Source: Helicobacteraceae bacterium
Lineage (GTDB): Bacteria > Campylobacterota > Campylobacteria > Campylobacterales > SZUA-545
Direction of reading: 5' to 3'
DNA: 54,194 nt
Assembly: GCA_031286325.1 (NCBI GenBank)
Contig: JAITUT010000035.1
Coordinates: 1 to 54,194, forward strand
A program made the translations under genes and the position numbers. Under the pieces are notes generated by a model. The model worked only from the letters and a program-made list of their open reading frames with translations. It was not told the origin of the DNA and did not search any database. Below are positions 11,733-45,867 of the stretch, piece after piece (the stretch's first letter is position 1; every line of letters begins with the position of its first letter).

Positions 11733-11796
11733 CTTAAACTTCAAGCGGGAGGAAGATTCCCGCTTGGGCGAAAGAAAAGGCGCGAAAAAAGCAAAA

Positions 11797-12897
11797 ATGA
11801 AAAATTTAGAAAAAGCAAACCCATTCAAATCAACCGTTGCAAAAACGGATTTTGGAACAGCAACTACTTTGCTTGCGGACTTTGGCGTTTCGCAACACGG
11901 CTCTATAAATTACAAAGGAAAAACGTTATTGGCGAATTATGTATATGCCGAAAACGAAACATACAAACTGGTTTATACCGTATTTGACAACGATGGAAAT
12001 CACGAAAGTTTCGCGGAAGACGACGGAATTTTACCAACGCTGTTTTTAAGTCCCGAAAATGAAGCCTTTGTTTCCGTTCAGCCCTACGATCCCGATAATG
12101 ATTTGGAAATAAGCATACCTGTTTTTAACCGTGAAAATACGGAATTACCTAAAAGAAACAGACCTTTTTTAGGAAAATTTATGGGAACGGCAAAACAGTT
12201 TTCCATACTTTACGATGGTGATATTTGGTCGGAGACAAAACCAGATAAACTTCTTGCCATTGAATTTAAAGACGGCGCAATCAAGAAAAAACACAATGTC
12301 AAAGTTCCATTGCCAAGAAACAACAAAGTTTTTATAGCCGACAACGAAATTCATTTATTGGCAATTGACGGCAAAAGTTGGTTGCACCGACAAATTGACG
12401 AAAAAGGGAATGTCATTCGTGAAAGAAAAATTCAACCGGGGACAAAATATTTTTCTGAAATATTAAGCCTGTCATTTGAAAAAGAATCATATATTTTATG
12501 TGGAGTAAAAGGGAAAATTTCACTTGAAATTATTTCAACCGACGGCAAAAGCAAAAGTAAAGAATTGGCGGATATTAAATGCGGTTTTTATAACACTTGG
12601 AAACCCGCGAAAATCGCGGAGGGCACTTATGTTACACAATTTAACGGAGATTTGGGCAACGGTTGGTTTACGATCAAGAATGACCAACTTTTAGAACTTT
12701 TTTACGGCAAAGAAGTAAAAGGTTATAAAAACTTGTTTACAAACGAAATTTTAAAAATGAACAACGAACACTTGTGCGTTTCGAATATCAACAAAACAAC
12801 GGAAAACGCCTACGCCGTAGTCTTTTATCCTATGACGGAGCGAGGGCTAAAGAATAAAGAATTGATTATATTAAATAGAGAAATAAAACCGCAATGA
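11797..12897 (+). CDS. Hypothetical AT-rich protein, possibly beta-propeller-like
   Basis: I do not recognise the family. The product has about 366 residues from the ATG at 11797; a TTG at 11764 would add 11 residues. It has many short beta-prone segments with G-N-x or D-G-K turns, spaced as in propeller-like proteins. It lacks a signal peptide, membrane helix or catalytic motif that I can see. Codon use is AT-rich (AAA, GAA, TTT), unlike mreB before it and fba after it. Its stop overlaps the ATG of a small frame that carries a dispersed peptide motif. Acquisition by transfer is likely. Confidence 0.6.
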   Translation: MKNLEKANPFKSTVAKTDFGTATTLLADFGVSQHGSINYKGKTLLANYVYAENETYKLVYTVFDNDGNHESFAEDDGILPTLFLSPENEAFVSVQPYDPDNDLEISIPVFNRENTELPKRNRPFLGKFMGTAKQFSILYDGDIWSETKPDKLLAIEFKDGAIKKKHNVKVPLPRNNKVFIADNEIHLLAIDGKSWLHRQIDEKGNVIRERKIQPGTKYFSEILSLSFEKESYILCGVKGKISLEIISTDGKSKSKELADIKCGFYNTWKPAKIAEGTYVTQFNGDLGNGWFTIKNDQLLELFYGKEVKGYKNLFTNEILKMNNEHLCVSNINKTTENAYAVVFYPMTERGLKNKELIILNREIKPQ

Positions 12898-12998
12898 AAA
12901 ACGAAGAAAAAGAAAGTTTACAAATAAACGCAGGGGCGAATCAACCCTTTTTATCACAACATTTTTTGCCTTTGAGACGTTATGCGGAAAATTTATAA
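12894..12998 (+). CDS. Small frame with the KESLxIN repeat peptide (copy D)
   Basis: This 34-codon frame starts at an ATG that overlaps the stop of the preceding gene (ATGA). It begins MKNEEKESLQINAGAN, closely matching the peptide of the three elements at 35.4, 36.4 and 37.1 kb (MKNEEKESLKINTEAT in the last). The DNA of 12895-12930 is nearly identical to the 37.1 kb copy. A short AGGG...CCCT inverted repeat follows. It may be a repeat element rather than a gene. Confidence 0.5.
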   Translation: MKNEEKESLQINAGANQPFLSQHFLPLRRYAENL

Positions 12999-13010: not shown

Positions 13011-13300
13011 ATGAATGAGTTTGAAGACAAATGGATATGGATATTTCAAGGAGAAAACGCAACTTCTTGTACAGCGGTTTTTACGGAAAAAGAAAAGGCG
13101 GAATTATGGATATTCAAACATTCTCTTTCCGGTAGTTTAACTCGTATGCCTGTAAATAAAAGCGTATATGATTGGGCTATTGAATTAGATTTTTTATACC
13201 TAAAAAAGAATATCAAAAAATGGGAAGTTTTATTCAACGGTTTTCAAGCGCGTATTTGGAACATTCACATTATTGTAATGGCATAAATGTAACAGATTAA
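13011..13300 (+). pseudogene. DUF7710-like small protein, frame broken at a T run
   Basis: The frame from ATG 13011 encodes WIWIFQGENATSCTAVF and SVYDWAIELDF, which I recognise as a small, possibly immunity-related family (DUF7710-like). After the run of six T at 13190-13195 the tail becomes nonsense and ends at 13286. Adding one T restores FFIPKKEYQKMGSFIQRFSS and a stop at 13298-13300, which fits the family ending. This is a single-base homopolymer loss, either real or a sequencing error. The family name is from memory. Confidence 0.6.
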
Positions 13301-33954: not shown

Positions 33955-33956
33955 AC

Positions 33957-33977
33957 TTAGGTTGTACCTAAGTATAA
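33957..33977. repeat. Hairpin ACTTAGGT-TGT-ACCTAAGT
   Basis: An eight-base perfect stem with a TGT loop lies just after the Imm10-like stop. The core AGGTACAACCT (minus strand) is the same as in the palindromic element at 37.1 kb. It could also act as a terminator, although no T-run follows. Confidence 0.6.
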
Positions 33978-34045
33978 TCATAAAATAAACCCGCAACTAA
34001 AACAAAGAAAAAGAAAATTTGAAAAAAACAAAAGGAGCGAATAGT

Positions 34046-34984
34046 ATGAATGAATACCTGAATAACTTATTAGCGAGAATGTTGGACGATAGCGATAGGG
34101 ATATGCGCCCTTTTGACAGCTCAAAAACTATCCATTGGAAAGCGTTAAGAGAAGCCGAGAAACTTACCGACGAGAGTTTTGTTTCAGAGCTTATTGAATT
34201 TATCGATACCGAAAAAGACAAAGAAAAAAGAGATAAGGCGTATTTTATCCTTGGGCAAGTCGCTAAAAACACGAACAACATAACGGCGATAAAATATCTG
34301 ATCGCTAGAATAGATAATGAAACAGACGAAAGCGTTCTCTGTTCCCTCTTGGAGAGGATTCGTTATTTACAAAAACCTAAAGATATAGATATTCAACCAA
34401 TTATAAGAGCGGTAAATAACAAAAATAGAAACGTAATGCACAGCGCGATATTAGCGTTGGAAAACACCGAAAATGAATCGGTTGAAGATGTTTTGATCGC
34501 TATCTTGGAAAATCCTAAAAGCGACGAATATGATTTAATGTACGCAAATTGGGCTTTGCAAAATGTAGGGACAAAAAAGAGCGTTCCTTGTTTAACAAAA
34601 TTGGTTGCGCGCAAAAAATTAGATGTTTCCAGTTCGGCTTTGAGCGCGATAATTTCAATATCTGATGAAAGTTGTTTGCCGTTGTGTTTAGAACAACTAG
34701 ACAAAGGCAAAATTAAAGCAACGGCGCTTGAGGGCGTTCTGAAATTTGGCAATGAAACAGTTATTCCAAATATAATAAAGCGAATAAAAGAGCTTGTCGC
34801 GCGGCAAAGACAAAGAATAGTTATTGCCGCCAAAGAGAGAAAAACGGAAATAATTGTCGGAATGGAATTTTTACAGAAATATCCCGAAAACGCGGAAGTA
34901 AAGCAAATGTTTGAATATCTACAAACAAAGAAATATGATTTGCTTTGGGAAGAAGAAAAAGAATGGCTAAAGAAAAACGTCTGA
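34046..34984 (+). CDS. HEAT-repeat protein, possible immunity protein
   Basis: The 312-residue soluble protein is built of repeated helix pairs of about 35 residues (for example AYFILGQVAKNTNNITAIKY, then SVLCSLLERIRYL, then MHSAILALENTEN). This is the HEAT/armadillo layout. AAGGAG precedes ATG 34046. AT-rich codon use marks it as acquired. Position and style agree with immunity or adaptor proteins of polymorphic-toxin clusters; no direct evidence of partner. Confidence 0.7.
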   Translation: MNEYLNNLLARMLDDSDRDMRPFDSSKTIHWKALREAEKLTDESFVSELIEFIDTEKDKEKRDKAYFILGQVAKNTNNITAIKYLIARIDNETDESVLCSLLERIRYLQKPKDIDIQPIIRAVNNKNRNVMHSAILALENTENESVEDVLIAILENPKSDEYDLMYANWALQNVGTKKSVPCLTKLVARKKLDVSSSALSAIISISDESCLPLCLEQLDKGKIKATALEGVLKFGNETVIPNIIKRIKELVARQRQRIVIAAKERKTEIIVGMEFLQKYPENAEVKQMFEYLQTKKYDLLWEEEKEWLKKNV

Positions 34985-35031: not shown

Positions 35032-36393
35032 TTATGTAGCGAACATTTTAATATCATCTAGGGCGTCTTGCGCTCTGCCTGAAATATCCTTATCGTTTAA
35101 TTTGTCGAATAGAACAGGAAGAACTTTTGCTTTATTTATTGAAGAATGAATTCTGGCTAAATGCCCTAAACAAGTAACGGCTAAACCTTTAATATCAACA
35201 TTTTGATGATTTGCCAATTTCAGACATTCGTCTTGTATCCATATCCAATCATTAAAATTTAATGTGGCGTACAGCAAAGCATTTGTTACTGTTGAAACCT
35301 CGTTAGATTTTAGGTGTTCAAGAACTTGCTCTTTTGATAATCCCCCGTTCGTCTGCGGTTGTCTCGCAGTTGCCTCTGTGTTTATTTTCAAACTTTCTTT
35401 TTCTTTGTTTGTTATTAAAAATTCCTCTCCCATTGCCAATTCTTTTACTTTATGCGTTATTTCTTTTTCGACGGCGTATTTGCGAAGTCGTTTTATTGGC
35501 TCGCTTGGCGGTTCGTCAGATAAATCATACGTTCCGTAGTGCATTGGAATTAAAACTTTTCCGCCCAAATCCAAAAATATCTGCGCGGCTTCTTCCGGGT
35601 TTGTGTGCGACTCCGACATAAACCATTGCGGCGAATACGCGCCAATGGGAAGCAAACAAACATCAATATCGCCAAATAAATTTTGTATTTCTTTAAACAA
35701 TAATTCATCATAAGCGGTGTCGCCCGCAAAAAATATCTTGGTGTCGCCCGCGATTATGAGAAAACTGCCCCAAAGCGTTTTATTTGCGTCTCTCAAAGCT
35801 CGTCGTCCCCAATGTTTAGCGGGGAGAAAAATAATTCGAATGTCATATCCTAATTTGTATTCCTGATACCAACCCGCTTCTTGAATTTTAACGTTGCGCA
35901 AAGCCTTTTCGCTAAAAAGCCGACTTCCGCCCAAAGGAATAAGCGCTTCTATTTCGGGATTGTTCTCTACCAAAATTTTGACAGATTTTTTGTCAAAATG
36001 ATCGCGGTGGTCGTGAGAGACTAAAAGATAATTGATTGATTTTAGACTATCGGGCGAGCAAGGCAAATTACGTTTGATTGGTATAAGCGTCTTAAAAAAA
36101 CAAGGGTCAATAATCAAACGCGCTCCGTTAATCTTCATCAAAAAAGAAGCGTGTCCCAACCAAACAATGCTGTTATTCTGCATAGCGGAAGGATTAAAAT
36201 TTTGAATTTGCAGCTCAAACGCGTCGTCGCGCTTTTCTTTTCGTTGCGGATTACGACTGAACTGCCACTTAAATACATCGGCGAAAGGAAAGTTGCGAGG
36301 AATCGCGCCATTTTGGAATTTTCCGTCAATGACGATATTTCCCCTCCAACCCTCTTTCACAATGGGCAAGTTAGGATTGCATATTCGCTTCAT
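35032..36393 (-). CDS. Metallo-beta-lactamase-fold hydrolase fused to a HEAT-like domain
   Basis: The product has about 453 residues. Residues 1-330 are an MBL-fold hydrolase of the UlaG/NAPE-PLD type, with SIVWLGHASFLMKINGARL, the metal motif SHDHRDHFDK, GDTAYDE and an HYGTYDL-like late His. A linker with KESLKINTEATARQPQTNGG follows. The last 100 residues are a helical-repeat domain (LSKEQVLEHLKSNEVSTVTN), which would be a complete small immunity-like protein on its own. The start is uncertain: ATG 36393 lies just after GGGGGAG, and the frame is open to a TTG at 36447 inside another copy of the element. Confidence 0.8.
   Translation of the reverse strand: MKRICNPNLPIVKEGWRGNIVIDGKFQNGAIPRNFPFADVFKWQFSRNPQRKEKRDDAFELQIQNFNPSAMQNNSIVWLGHASFLMKINGARLIIDPCFFKTLIPIKRNLPCSPDSLKSINYLLVSHDHRDHFDKKSVKILVENNPEIEALIPLGGSRLFSEKALRNVKIQEAGWYQEYKLGYDIRIIFLPAKHWGRRALRDANKTLWGSFLIIAGDTKIFFAGDTAYDELLFKEIQNLFGDIDVCLLPIGAYSPQWFMSESHTNPEEAAQIFLDLGGKVLIPMHYGTYDLSDEPPSEPIKRLRKYAVEKEITHKVKELAMGEEFLITNKEKESLKINTEATARQPQTNGGLSKEQVLEHLKSNEVSTVTNALLYATLNFNDWIWIQDECLKLANHQNVDIKGLAVTCLGHLARIHSSINKAKVLPVLFDKLNDKDISGRAQDALDDIKMFAT
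35342..35410 (-). repeat. Palindromic coding element, copy A (inside a gene)
   Basis: The coding strand reads AAAGAAAGTTTGAAAATAAA, then an imperfect hairpin CTGCG-AGACAAC-CGCAG, then ACGAACGGGG. It encodes KESLKINTEATARQPQTNGG in frame, between the hydrolase and the HEAT-like domain of the fusion gene. Confidence 0.75.
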
Positions 36394-36397
36394 ATCT

Positions 36398-36470
36398 CCC
36401 CCGTTCGACGAAAGTTTTACGCTCGTCGAGTCTGTCTTTATTTTCAATCTTTCTTTTGCTTCTGCTTTAT
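36398..36470 (-). repeat. Palindromic coding element, copy B (gene junction)
   Basis: The layout matches copies A and C: KAEAKERLKIKTDSTSVKLS and SSNGG-type peptide, a stem CGACGA/TCGTCG, and the end TCGAACGGGG. It overlaps the last codons of the upstream gene and runs into the start of the hydrolase gene. Confidence 0.65.
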
Positions 36471-37070
36471 ATCTTTTATTAAGTTATATTTTTTTTCAAA
36501 GTTATGTATCAGATAATTAATACCCTCTTTGTTTAATTTATCTTCTTCAAATGCCCATCCTATCAGATATTCCAGTAAAGAATTATCATTAATACAATCT
36601 ATAAGAGGACAAATTTGGGTGATGGATAGTTCTTCTGTTGCAGAAAGAATGGCTTTTGAGCCATACTTTATTACTGGAATTTCTATCCAAGCCAAGTCAT
36701 AAGGTAAATGTTCAAATACAAATTTATTTTTTCCAAGTGCAATCAAAAAATCATCATTAACTAACCTATGATGTGTTACAATTTTCAAAAATAATATTTG
36801 TTTATTTTTATTTTTCACTTTTTGTATGCAACTTAGCAAATCACTGGGTTTGTTAATGAGTTTTCCAACAAGGGTGTCAATGAATATGTTAAATAAATAT
36901 TCAAAATCGGTACTTTTACTTTTATTGTCTAATAAATAGTTTAGTATTTTTGAAAATGTTGCTTCATAAGAATATAGAAGGGTTATTAATTTTTTGTCTT
37001 CCTTCATTAAGTCAATAATACTCTCAACATCTTCTTTATTTAGTATTTTGTCATACATATCCATAATCAT
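36444..37070 (-). CDS. Hypothetical helical protein, immunity-like
   Basis: The 208-residue AT-rich protein is all-helical (IIDLMKEDKKLITLLYSYEA near the start). It resembles helical-repeat immunity proteins in style, but I do not recognise a family. Its ATG overlaps the stop of a 32-residue frame carrying the KESLKINTEAT peptide, and its last residues (KQKQKKD) run into the next copy of that element. Confidence 0.6.
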   Translation of the reverse strand: MIMDMYDKILNKEDVESIIDLMKEDKKLITLLYSYEATFSKILNYLLDNKSKSTDFEYLFNIFIDTLVGKLINKPSDLLSCIQKVKNKNKQILFLKIVTHHRLVNDDFLIALGKNKFVFEHLPYDLAWIEIPVIKYGSKAILSATEELSITQICPLIDCINDNSLLEYLIGWAFEEDKLNKEGINYLIHNFEKKYNLIKDIKQKQKKD

Positions 37071-37165
37071 TTAACTTTTACAACCTCTATTTCCCCGTTC
37101 GGCGAAGGTTGTACCTTCGTCGCCTCTGTGTTTATTTTCAAACTTTCTTTTTCTTCGTTTTTCAT
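37067..37165 (-). CDS. 32-residue frame carrying the KESLKINTEAT peptide (copy C)
   Basis: The frame begins MKNEEKESLKINTEATKVQP and ends at a TGA that overlaps the next start codon (ATGA). A tiny upstream frame in turn overlaps this one. The DNA contains a perfect CGAAGGT-ACA-ACCTTCG hairpin. It may be an intergenic element that happens to be open, or a coupled small protein. Confidence 0.45.
   Translation of the reverse strand: MKNEEKESLKINTEATKVQPSPNGEIEVVKVK
37093..37163 (-). repeat. Palindromic coding element, copy C
   Basis: Aligned on the coding strand, AAAGAAAGTTTGAAAATAAA and CACAGAGGC are followed by the hairpin CGAAGGT-ACA-ACCTTCG and CCGAACGGGG. The flanks match copies A and B, but both arms of the stem differ together. 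Confidence 0.75.
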
Positions 37166-37236
37166 CGCGATTTTATTTTATTTCTTTCTGTCATTTTAAA
37201 ATTGCTAAAACCGCTTTGCTCATTTTCAGTTTGGTA

Positions 37237-37962
37237 TCAGCCCGCAACTGGATGGATAGTCAACACAACGTTATTGTTTTCTATACGAAGCCAAAACCTG
37301 ATATTATGGTCAATATGACCGCCAGCCTTGTAGTTTGGGTCGTCTATAAAACCAAAATATTCGCCCCCTTCCGCGCTCATTTGTTTGCCGATGACTTTTT
37401 CAACTTGCTGTTTAAGGTTTTGTAGTGCCGTATTGCCGCCTGTTAGGTATATTTCTAGGCTTTGTACAACTTCGTTGTCTTGATATGAGTCGTACCGCGC
37501 GGTTGTACCCGCAGGCTGTGCGAGCGGCGGAATCTTGAACCTGCTTTGAAATGCTAAGGCGGGAGGCCAGCCGGCGTTTGCGCCTTGCTGGGTTTGCTGT
37601 TGGCGCGGTTGCTGTTGTATTTGTTGCTGCTGTTGCAACGCCTTTTGTTGCATTTGTTGGATTTGCTGTAACTGCCTGTTTCCGTCGTTTGCGCCAATAT
37701 TACCCTGCGGAGGTTGATGTTGTCGTATCAAGTCGCCGTAGGGACTCTCCGCCATTTCTTTCATAACTTCATCACGGATTTCTTGCATCCGCCGCGCTTC
37801 TTTCGGCGTTAATTGTTGTCCTTTGTCAACCTTAGCCTCAAGCTGTTCTAGTTCTTTCTCTAACGCTTCGAGCCTCTTTATATCCTGCGCCTCTGCTTGC
37901 GGCGCGACAGCCGTTCCAAGCGCCGCTAAAACAAACAGCGCAATAATGCTTTTCTTTAACAT
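37237..37962 (-). CDS. Exported Gln-rich protein, hypothetical
   Basis: The 241-residue product has a signal peptide (MLKKSIIALFVLAALGTAVA), then a charged coiled coil (residues 28-75). A Gln-rich low-complexity segment (about 95-128) and a folded C-terminal domain with a GGHIDHNIRFWLRIENN segment follow. It is probably periplasmic or surface-exposed. No family is recognised. G+C is intermediate between the array before it and the core genes after it. Confidence 0.65.
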   Translation of the reverse strand: MLKKSIIALFVLAALGTAVAPQAEAQDIKRLEALEKELEQLEAKVDKGQQLTPKEARRMQEIRDEVMKEMAESPYGDLIRQHQPPQGNIGANDGNRQLQQIQQMQQKALQQQQQIQQQPRQQQTQQGANAGWPPALAFQSRFKIPPLAQPAGTTARYDSYQDNEVVQSLEIYLTGGNTALQNLKQQVEKVIGKQMSAEGGEYFGFIDDPNYKAGGHIDHNIRFWLRIENNNVVLTIHPVAG

Positions 37963-43241: not shown

Positions 43242-43352
43242 ATGTTTAGCGCGACACGACACGACACGACACGACACGACACGACACGACACGACACGAC
43301 ACGACACGACACGACACGACACGACACGACACGACGCAGGCGCACGCGCTAG
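43242..43352 (+). CDS. Small frame made of a pentanucleotide repeat
   Basis: The ATG is followed by TTT AGC and then the ACGAC array, which encodes a repeating TRHDT peptide. In the present copy number it stops at TAG 43350-43352. One more unit would enter a frame that runs to TGA 43477 and contains LYPQVFLSST twice. One fewer unit would enter a frame ending at TAA 43463. No known protein family is recognised in any tail, so the gene may be a decayed contingency locus or a non-coding repeat. Confidence 0.35.
   Translation: MFSATRHDTTRHDTTRHDTTRHDTTRHDTTRRRRTR
43256..43335. repeat. Pentanucleotide tract (ACGAC)16
   Basis: Sixteen perfect ACGAC units follow one GCGAC. The unit length is not a multiple of three, so slippage changes the reading frame. 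This is the second microsatellite of the window. Confidence 0.97.
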
Positions 43353-45475: not shown

Positions 45476-45708
45476 GTCTTTTGAAGAAATTTTTGCAACT
45501 TTTCTAAAAACGCAAGACAAAGCGCGTTATTTCGTTATTGCGGAGTTGAGGGTTTCTAATAGGAATGCAAGACGTTTCGTATGGGAGCTCTTGATCCGCA
45601 ATCTCGATCGCGAGCCGTTTTACGAGATTAGGCGTAGCGGCGCGAAAATGAAAGCGTTAAGCCAAAACCCGCTAAAAATATATAAATTCCTTTGAAGGTG
45701 GTGCGCCC

Positions 45709-45867
45709 TTGAAGACTTTTCTGGACAATTTAACCAAAGAAGCGAAGCGCGGCTGGCGCGGTATAATAGACGGGTTTAGGTATGAAGACGCGTCCTTGAA
45801 GACTTTTCTGGACAATTTAACCAAAGAAGCGAAGCGCGGCTGGCGCGGTATAATAGAGGGGTTTACG
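45709..45867 (+). repeat. 87-base in-frame tandem duplication
   Basis: The sequence from TTG 45709 is repeated from TTG 45796 with only a few changes near the end. Each copy encodes LKTFLDNLTKEAKRGWRGII and GF. Each also contains GGTATAATAGA, a -10-like word. Confidence 0.9.

Follow-up and report, generated by a model that had tools for sequence, protein, structure and literature searches.

A repeated sequence that probably serves as translation start and joint of orphan immunity and defence cassettes in one Helicobacteraceae species

The window, that is, the whole 54,194-nucleotide stretch of Helicobacteraceae DNA analysed, contains five copies of a short repeat. All four copies given in a preliminary description of this DNA (at 35.4, 36.4, 37.1, and 12.9 kb) are found; the fifth, at about 33956-34040 on the plus strand, is decayed and had not been counted. 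The copies and the genes that they front (cargo) are as follows.

37093-37181, minus strand: copy 1, full-length; AT-rich stop region, ATG (37165), leader core, hairpin CGAAGGT-ACA-ACCTTCG, and end GAACGGGG
37067-37165, minus strand: leader ORF of copy 1, 32 aa; its TGA overlaps the ATG of cargo 1 (37070) as ATGA
36444-37070, minus strand: cargo 1, 208 aa protein
36399-36468, minus strand: copy 2, without ATG; hairpin CGACGAGCGT/ACTTTCGTCG and end GAACGGGG
35417-36393, minus strand: cargo 2, metallo-beta-lactamase-fold hydrolase (Lactamase_B_2, 7.8e-31)
35343-35416, minus strand: copy 3, in-frame, start codon mutated; hairpin CTGCG/CGCAG
35032-35342, minus strand: cargo 3, C-terminal piece of ~100 aa joined to cargo 2 via copy 3; helical-repeat-like by eye
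33956-34040, plus strand: decayed copy 5; upstream palindrome CTTAGGTTGTACCTAAG, TATAATCATAAAATAAACCCGCA, ATG changed to ACT, truncated core; covariance model E 1.5e-5
34046-34984, plus strand: cargo of copy 5, HEAT-repeat protein (HEAT_2, 6e-13) with its own AAAGGAG Shine-Dalgarno sequence
11764-12897, plus strand: ORF directly 5' of copy 4, behind clpX-mreB-like genes (names by eye)
12881-12939, plus strand: copy 4; stop region, ATG (12894), and core, truncated before the hairpin
12894-12998, plus strand: leader ORF of copy 4, 34 aa; ends 12 nt before the ATG of cargo 4
12956-12985: stretch resembling ACAATATTTTNCCTTTGAGRCGTTATAC; others at C7:140-156, C7:3487-3503, and C5:8074-8090 of this assembly
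13011-13286, plus strand: cargo 4, DUF7710 protein of 91 aa (DUF7710, 4.6e-21)

Copy 1 has the best covariance-model score, 100 bits. The copies at 35.4, 36.4, and 37.1 kb share the end CGAACGGGG, and the pairing arms CTGCG/CGCAG, CGACGA/TCGTCG, and CGAAGGT/ACCTTCG are present, both as described before. The copies had also been described as uniformly open in frame, joining or coupling the genes on either side. This holds for copy 3, which fuses the hydrolase to the protein of cargo 3 in frame, but not every copy joins its neighbours in one frame: copies 1 and 4 are separate leader ORFs, and copy 2 has no ATG. The upstream cargo stops (TGA) within copy 2 in another frame. The ORF in front of copy 4, most of which has no Pfam match, ends ...KPQ* on the CAATGA of that copy. 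Cargo 1 has no match in Pfam, NCBIfam, or PADLOC, and cargo 3 has none in Pfam.

The hydrolase allows the boundary between repeat and cargo to be placed. Its native ATG at 36393 corresponds to residue 19 of the listed ORF. A homologue (46% identical, from a genome of the same order) aligns with residues 20-341; the alignment begins right after the Met at 36393 and ends just before copy 3. Since the alignment spans the native ATG to the next copy, the cassette of cargo 2 is one gene from start to end. In this one testable case, the repeat appears to be an addition at the native start.

Next to the islet, a secreted-looking, glutamine-rich protein of 241 aa is encoded at 37237-37962 on the minus strand. 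It lacks relatives in 15 family genomes and matches no Pfam family; it could be a toxin or a carrier. Elsewhere in the window are a tandem CGACA repeat (43242-43351, ~9 decamer units) and two 76 bp direct repeats (45703-45865, 97% identical, their starts 87 bp apart).

The repeat is not confined to the window. In the 2.05 Mb genome, a 20-mer pattern with up to three mismatches has 39 matches, compared with 4 for the reversed control, and a stricter 26-mer has 32, compared with 0. Because the matches greatly exceed those of the reversed patterns, the similarity is far above chance. A covariance model finds at least 41 copies at E < 1e-3 in the whole assembly, and endpoint analysis yields 48 candidates, which become ~45 copies when two ordinary host sequences and two double-counted copies are removed. 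Genome statistics are computed on extracted stretches of the genome.

The search of relatives finds no copy. Exact and degenerate pattern scans give a single match in GTDB genome contigs, a chance one in a Planctomycetia MAG, and two chance matches, at two mismatches, in 100 relatives; there is none in viral contigs or in phages and plasmids. Against 15 family genomes, the covariance model gives only weak matches, mostly in two AT-rich ones (G008 and G009), and inspection of these sequences identifies them as unrelated A-rich coding DNA. Rfam detects only tRNAs in the window. Among the collections searched, the repeat is known from one genome, and thus one species, only.

The constant part of the repeat is its 5' half. 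It consists of an AT-rich stretch with stop codons followed by CAATG AAA AAC GAA GAA AAA GAA AGT TTG AAA ATA, that is, a start codon and a coding leader with the peptide MKNEEKESLKINTEAT... The full unit reads ATAAAATAAAACCGCA ATG AAA AAC GAA GAA AAA GAA AGT TTG AAA ATA AAC ACA GAG GCG ACT GAG GGG CAA ACG CAG CCG AAC GGG G. In an in-register alignment of the copies, conservation increases from about -25 relative to the ATG, peaks between the ATG and +35, and then fades. The left edge lies at the ATG or slightly 5' of it. On the right, ~30 copies end raggedly, anywhere between +20 and +46, and ~15-20 retain the whole 3' half including the hairpin (edge at +67 to +72). What is retained throughout is therefore the start rather than the palindrome.

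Stop codons precede or overlap this start. Many copies have TAA at -15 and -10, and all 29 copies with an ATG have a TGA overlapping it (ATGA). Stops occur in all three frames before or at the ATG in 16 of these 29, compared with 9% when the upstream bases are shuffled, and upstream ORFs often terminate within them, as does the one ending at 12897. Substitutions in the core are nearly all non-synonymous (AAC/ACC, AGT/AGG, ATA/ATG, GAA/AAA), with wobble bases kept and few synonymous changes, indicating that the leader peptide is not what is kept. Compared with host genes, leaders rarely have a Shine-Dalgarno core (3/30 vs 32/78), and their start regions are little structured (folding energy -1.6 vs -9.1 kcal/mol). 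Both properties fit an initiation module, although the AT-richness of foreign DNA could in part explain both.

Two further sequence features accompany some copies. In some leaders, a second shared stretch, approximately ACAATATTTTNCCTTTGAGRCGTTATAC, takes the place of the hairpin half and closes the leader ORF ahead of the cargo start; it is possibly a second module type. The perfect palindrome CTTAGGTTGTACCTAAG lies closely 5' of two copies (33956-33972 in the window and L027:2766-2782), with a diverged form 5' of a third, and is perhaps a terminator or the end of a preceding cassette.

Throughout the genome, each copy fronts a different, recently acquired AT-rich gene, and many of these genes resemble antidotes against the toxins of other bacteria. 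The cassettes are dispersed over ~20 small islets of 1-4 genes, mostly just 3' of core genes, which include sucC, rpsI, a DJ-1/PfpI gene, and the genes for a sulfate permease and a di-haem peroxidase. The GC content of the islets is 32-36%, compared with ~47-53% around them and 49-53% in those neighbours that were measured in the window. The cargo matches six Pfam families of polymorphic-toxin immunity proteins: Imm26 (3.5e-15), Imm22 (3.6e-9), Imm9 (4e-34), SUKH (7e-17), Imm17 (1.9e-8), and PoNi (1.3e-8). Further matches are to DUF7710, HEAT, ankyrin, and pentapeptide proteins, the metallo-beta-lactamase-fold hydrolase, and, weakly, a sulfatase-modifying factor. Methyltransferases adjoin one copy, and are all that PADLOC recognises among ten proteins. 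About half of the cargo proteins have no family match. Family matches thus demonstrate immunity for a minority of the cargo only, and some of it (methyltransferase, hydrolase) is not immunity. The preliminary description had named a duplicated ancestral gene as another possible source of the similarity; since the cargo families are unrelated, such an origin is excluded.

No match to the type VI secretion (T6SS) protein VipB/TssC is found in the genome, so that, as far as T6SS is concerned, the immunity genes appear to be orphans. The SUKH genes found in congeners carry neither module nor leader. In one congener (G003, L126), an Rhs-core-like ORF, named by eye, lies beside a weak SUKH match; toxins of the matching kind may thus exist in the genus.

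The palindromic 3' half deserves separate consideration, as paired changes in its arms had been taken to point to selection on structure. Of the cells in a ten-pair register, 62% pair, with a covariation score of 0.246, compared with 0.170 in shuffles (1/500) and 0.05-0.15 in slid registers. When whole arms are permuted, p is 0.014 for pairs and 0.003 for run length; both values rise to ~0.09 after near-duplicate arms are thinned. Paired arms hold in only about two thirds of the full-length copies, and RNAalifold returns no consensus fold for the aligned copies. Pairing is thus above chance but weakens once similar copies are removed, so that the evidence for selection on structure is suggestive and does not establish it. 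Template-switch (quasi-palindrome) mutation could also have produced the paired arms. A stem probably belonged to the ancestor of the full-length form. The hairpin goes with the complete 3' half, and cargo can be linked without it; more than half of the copies have no hairpin and still carry cargo.

Copies appear to have exchanged sequence. All eight combinations of three two-state sites, which lie within 26 bp, are observed; copies of the same islet are more alike than expected by chance (p = 0.009). Together, these observations suggest exchange between copies and local duplication, although the eight combinations could in part reflect recurrent mutation. In six congeners, frr is adjacent to pyrE (6/6) and sucC to sucD (6/6). 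In this genome, other genes and islets come after frr and sucC, and pyrE no longer follows frr. Splitting of sucC (C5:642) from sucD (C96:7000-7890) by a simple insertion is ruled out, as sucD is found on a different contig, where it follows an asd-like gene.

On balance, we favour, with moderate confidence, the reading that the repeat is a translation-start module that doubles as recombination homology for orphan immunity and defence cassettes in one species, whose gene order points to Campylobacterales. Each cassette would pair the module with a single AT-rich gene of foreign origin; most would lie behind a core gene, presumably riding on its transcription. The module would first end incoming translation, by means of the stops at -15 and -10 and the TGA at +1 that overlaps the start. 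Ribosomes would then restart at the module ATG, in an A-rich, unstructured context without a Shine-Dalgarno sequence, and would reach the cargo through a direct fusion or via a short leader ORF that ends at the cargo start, as the anatomy of the copies suggests. The same ~40-60 nt would provide shared homology for exchanging cassettes with residents or duplicating them beside residents. Recombination between copies is supported; that recombination is also the route by which new genes are joined, we infer.

A broader reading in terms of gene capture is more tentative, and we think it rather doubtful as a whole. The joining sequence would be a portable, ATG-bearing start of 40-60 nt that stops ribosomes and restarts them without a Shine-Dalgarno sequence, so that incoming defence genes could be attached and expressed behind core operons by ordinary recombination, with no dedicated recombinase. 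As we read it, a genome-wide set of orphan immunity genes shares a joining sequence that is probably also the translation start. This offers a testable account of how AT-rich genes of foreign origin that lack a usable start region come to be expressed and exchanged. How orphan immunity genes are gathered is called open even for the recombinase-associated acquired interbacterial defence (rAID) clusters (PMC12247911). In addition, the repeat can be used as a probe for more cassettes in the lineage.

Other readings have been weighed against the translation-start module. The palindromic half could be a site-specific recombination site, folded as a single strand or used as a duplex, for a tyrosine recombinase encoded elsewhere, as in integrons or rAID, with the coding leader incidental. 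We consider this unlikely, though worth some weight: the layout is cassette-like, the cargo includes immunity genes, the hairpin pairs above chance, arrays break off where contigs end (of 48 copies, 19 are no more than 1 kb from an end, compared with 9% expected), and six tyrosine recombinase (PF00589) matches are present in the genome. None of the six, however, is on a contig with an islet, in a fragmented assembly where a link could be missed. No integron integrase exceeds the cut-off, the best tyrosine recombinase scoring 109.8 vs 265 bits. The aligned copies show no GTTRRRY/RYYYAAC pair of attC cores; their right end reads GCCGAAC and has no partner core in the 5' arm. Moreover, a site in the palindrome does not account for the cargo of the many copies without a hairpin. 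Multiple coding copies with a palindromic 3' half, some decayed or truncated, could alternatively represent a selfish palindromic element of the Rickettsia palindromic element (RPE) or MITE type, inserting near gene starts and tolerated because it is open and brings stops and a start. Such an element is improbable here. By eye, the aligned flanks show no terminal inverted repeats or target duplications; the copies are tied to foreign AT-rich genes, with none seen within a conserved gene body; and the left edge holds to the start codon, whereas truncation takes the palindrome and spares the coding 5' part.

The foreign genes may have come together from one donor in which the start region was common, the repeat being a neutral leftover with no present role. 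AT-rich islets, decayed copies, and the one-species distribution agree with this, but in ~45 copies whose cargo differs widely, no part is better preserved than the start region, and there are signs of exchange between copies, which leaves such an origin little likelihood. Least probable, in our judgement, is a function of the leader peptide itself as a sorting or docking tag that marks cargo proteins. Unrelated proteins do bear the same N-terminal sequence; core changes, however, overwhelmingly alter the peptide and spare the wobble bases, in several copies the leader is an ORF of its own and not fused to cargo, and some copies have no start codon.

The translation-start module can be compared with four known systems. 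In Bacteroidales, rAID clusters are co-oriented orphan immunity genes of ~100-300 codons, often SUKH, joined by a conserved repeated sequence (PMC12247911). The cassettes described here are likewise short, co-oriented orphan immunity genes, in islets of 1-4 and with six immunity Pfam families among the cargo. The rAID motif, however, is intergenic, beside a tyrosine recombinase, and in one cluster, whereas the motif here spans a start codon and a coding leader, and the cassettes are spread over ~20 islets with no linked recombinase found in the fragmented assembly. In Vibrio cholerae, T6SS orphan immunity arrays are shaped by recombination (PMC5361080). Those arrays are recombination-shaped sets of orphan immunity genes, as the present ones probably are, but they follow displaced effectors where T6SS clusters end on the 3' side, in contrast to dispersed cassettes with a shared 5' module in a genome without a VipB/TssC match.

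RPEs are repeated coding DNA with a palindrome, encoding a conserved peptide (PMC10969869), and the preliminary description had likened the repeat to them as a palindromic element inserting in coding DNA. It is indeed repeated, coding, partly palindromic, located at gene junctions, and absent from relatives, and its copies share a peptide. The likeness ends there: RPEs are ~150 bp long and lie within unrelated metabolic genes, whereas the present copies are ~60-100 bp, what stays constant in them is a start codon with ~11 initial codons, most have lost the palindromic 3' half, which is dispensable, and they are sited at the 5' end of acquired genes rather than in frame inside unrelated conserved ones.

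The ORF-11 leader of attI1 in class 1 integrons is a short coding leader in a joining sequence, which starts cassettes lacking a start by coupling or fusion, and whose peptide sequence matters little (PMC8876359). The module likewise is a joining sequence whose coding leader would give cassettes a translation start. ORF-11, in contrast, is one fixed site with a Shine-Dalgarno sequence, whereas here each cassette has its own copy without one, and neither an attC core nor an IntI above the cut-off is present. As the fragmented assembly shows no linked recombinase, no IntI above the cut-off, no attC, and no insertion inside genes, the system is classed as neither rAID nor integron nor RPE. By analogy, the module appears to resemble both rAID, in cargo and layout, and the ORF-11 leader, in supplying a start for cassettes, at once, while being neither.
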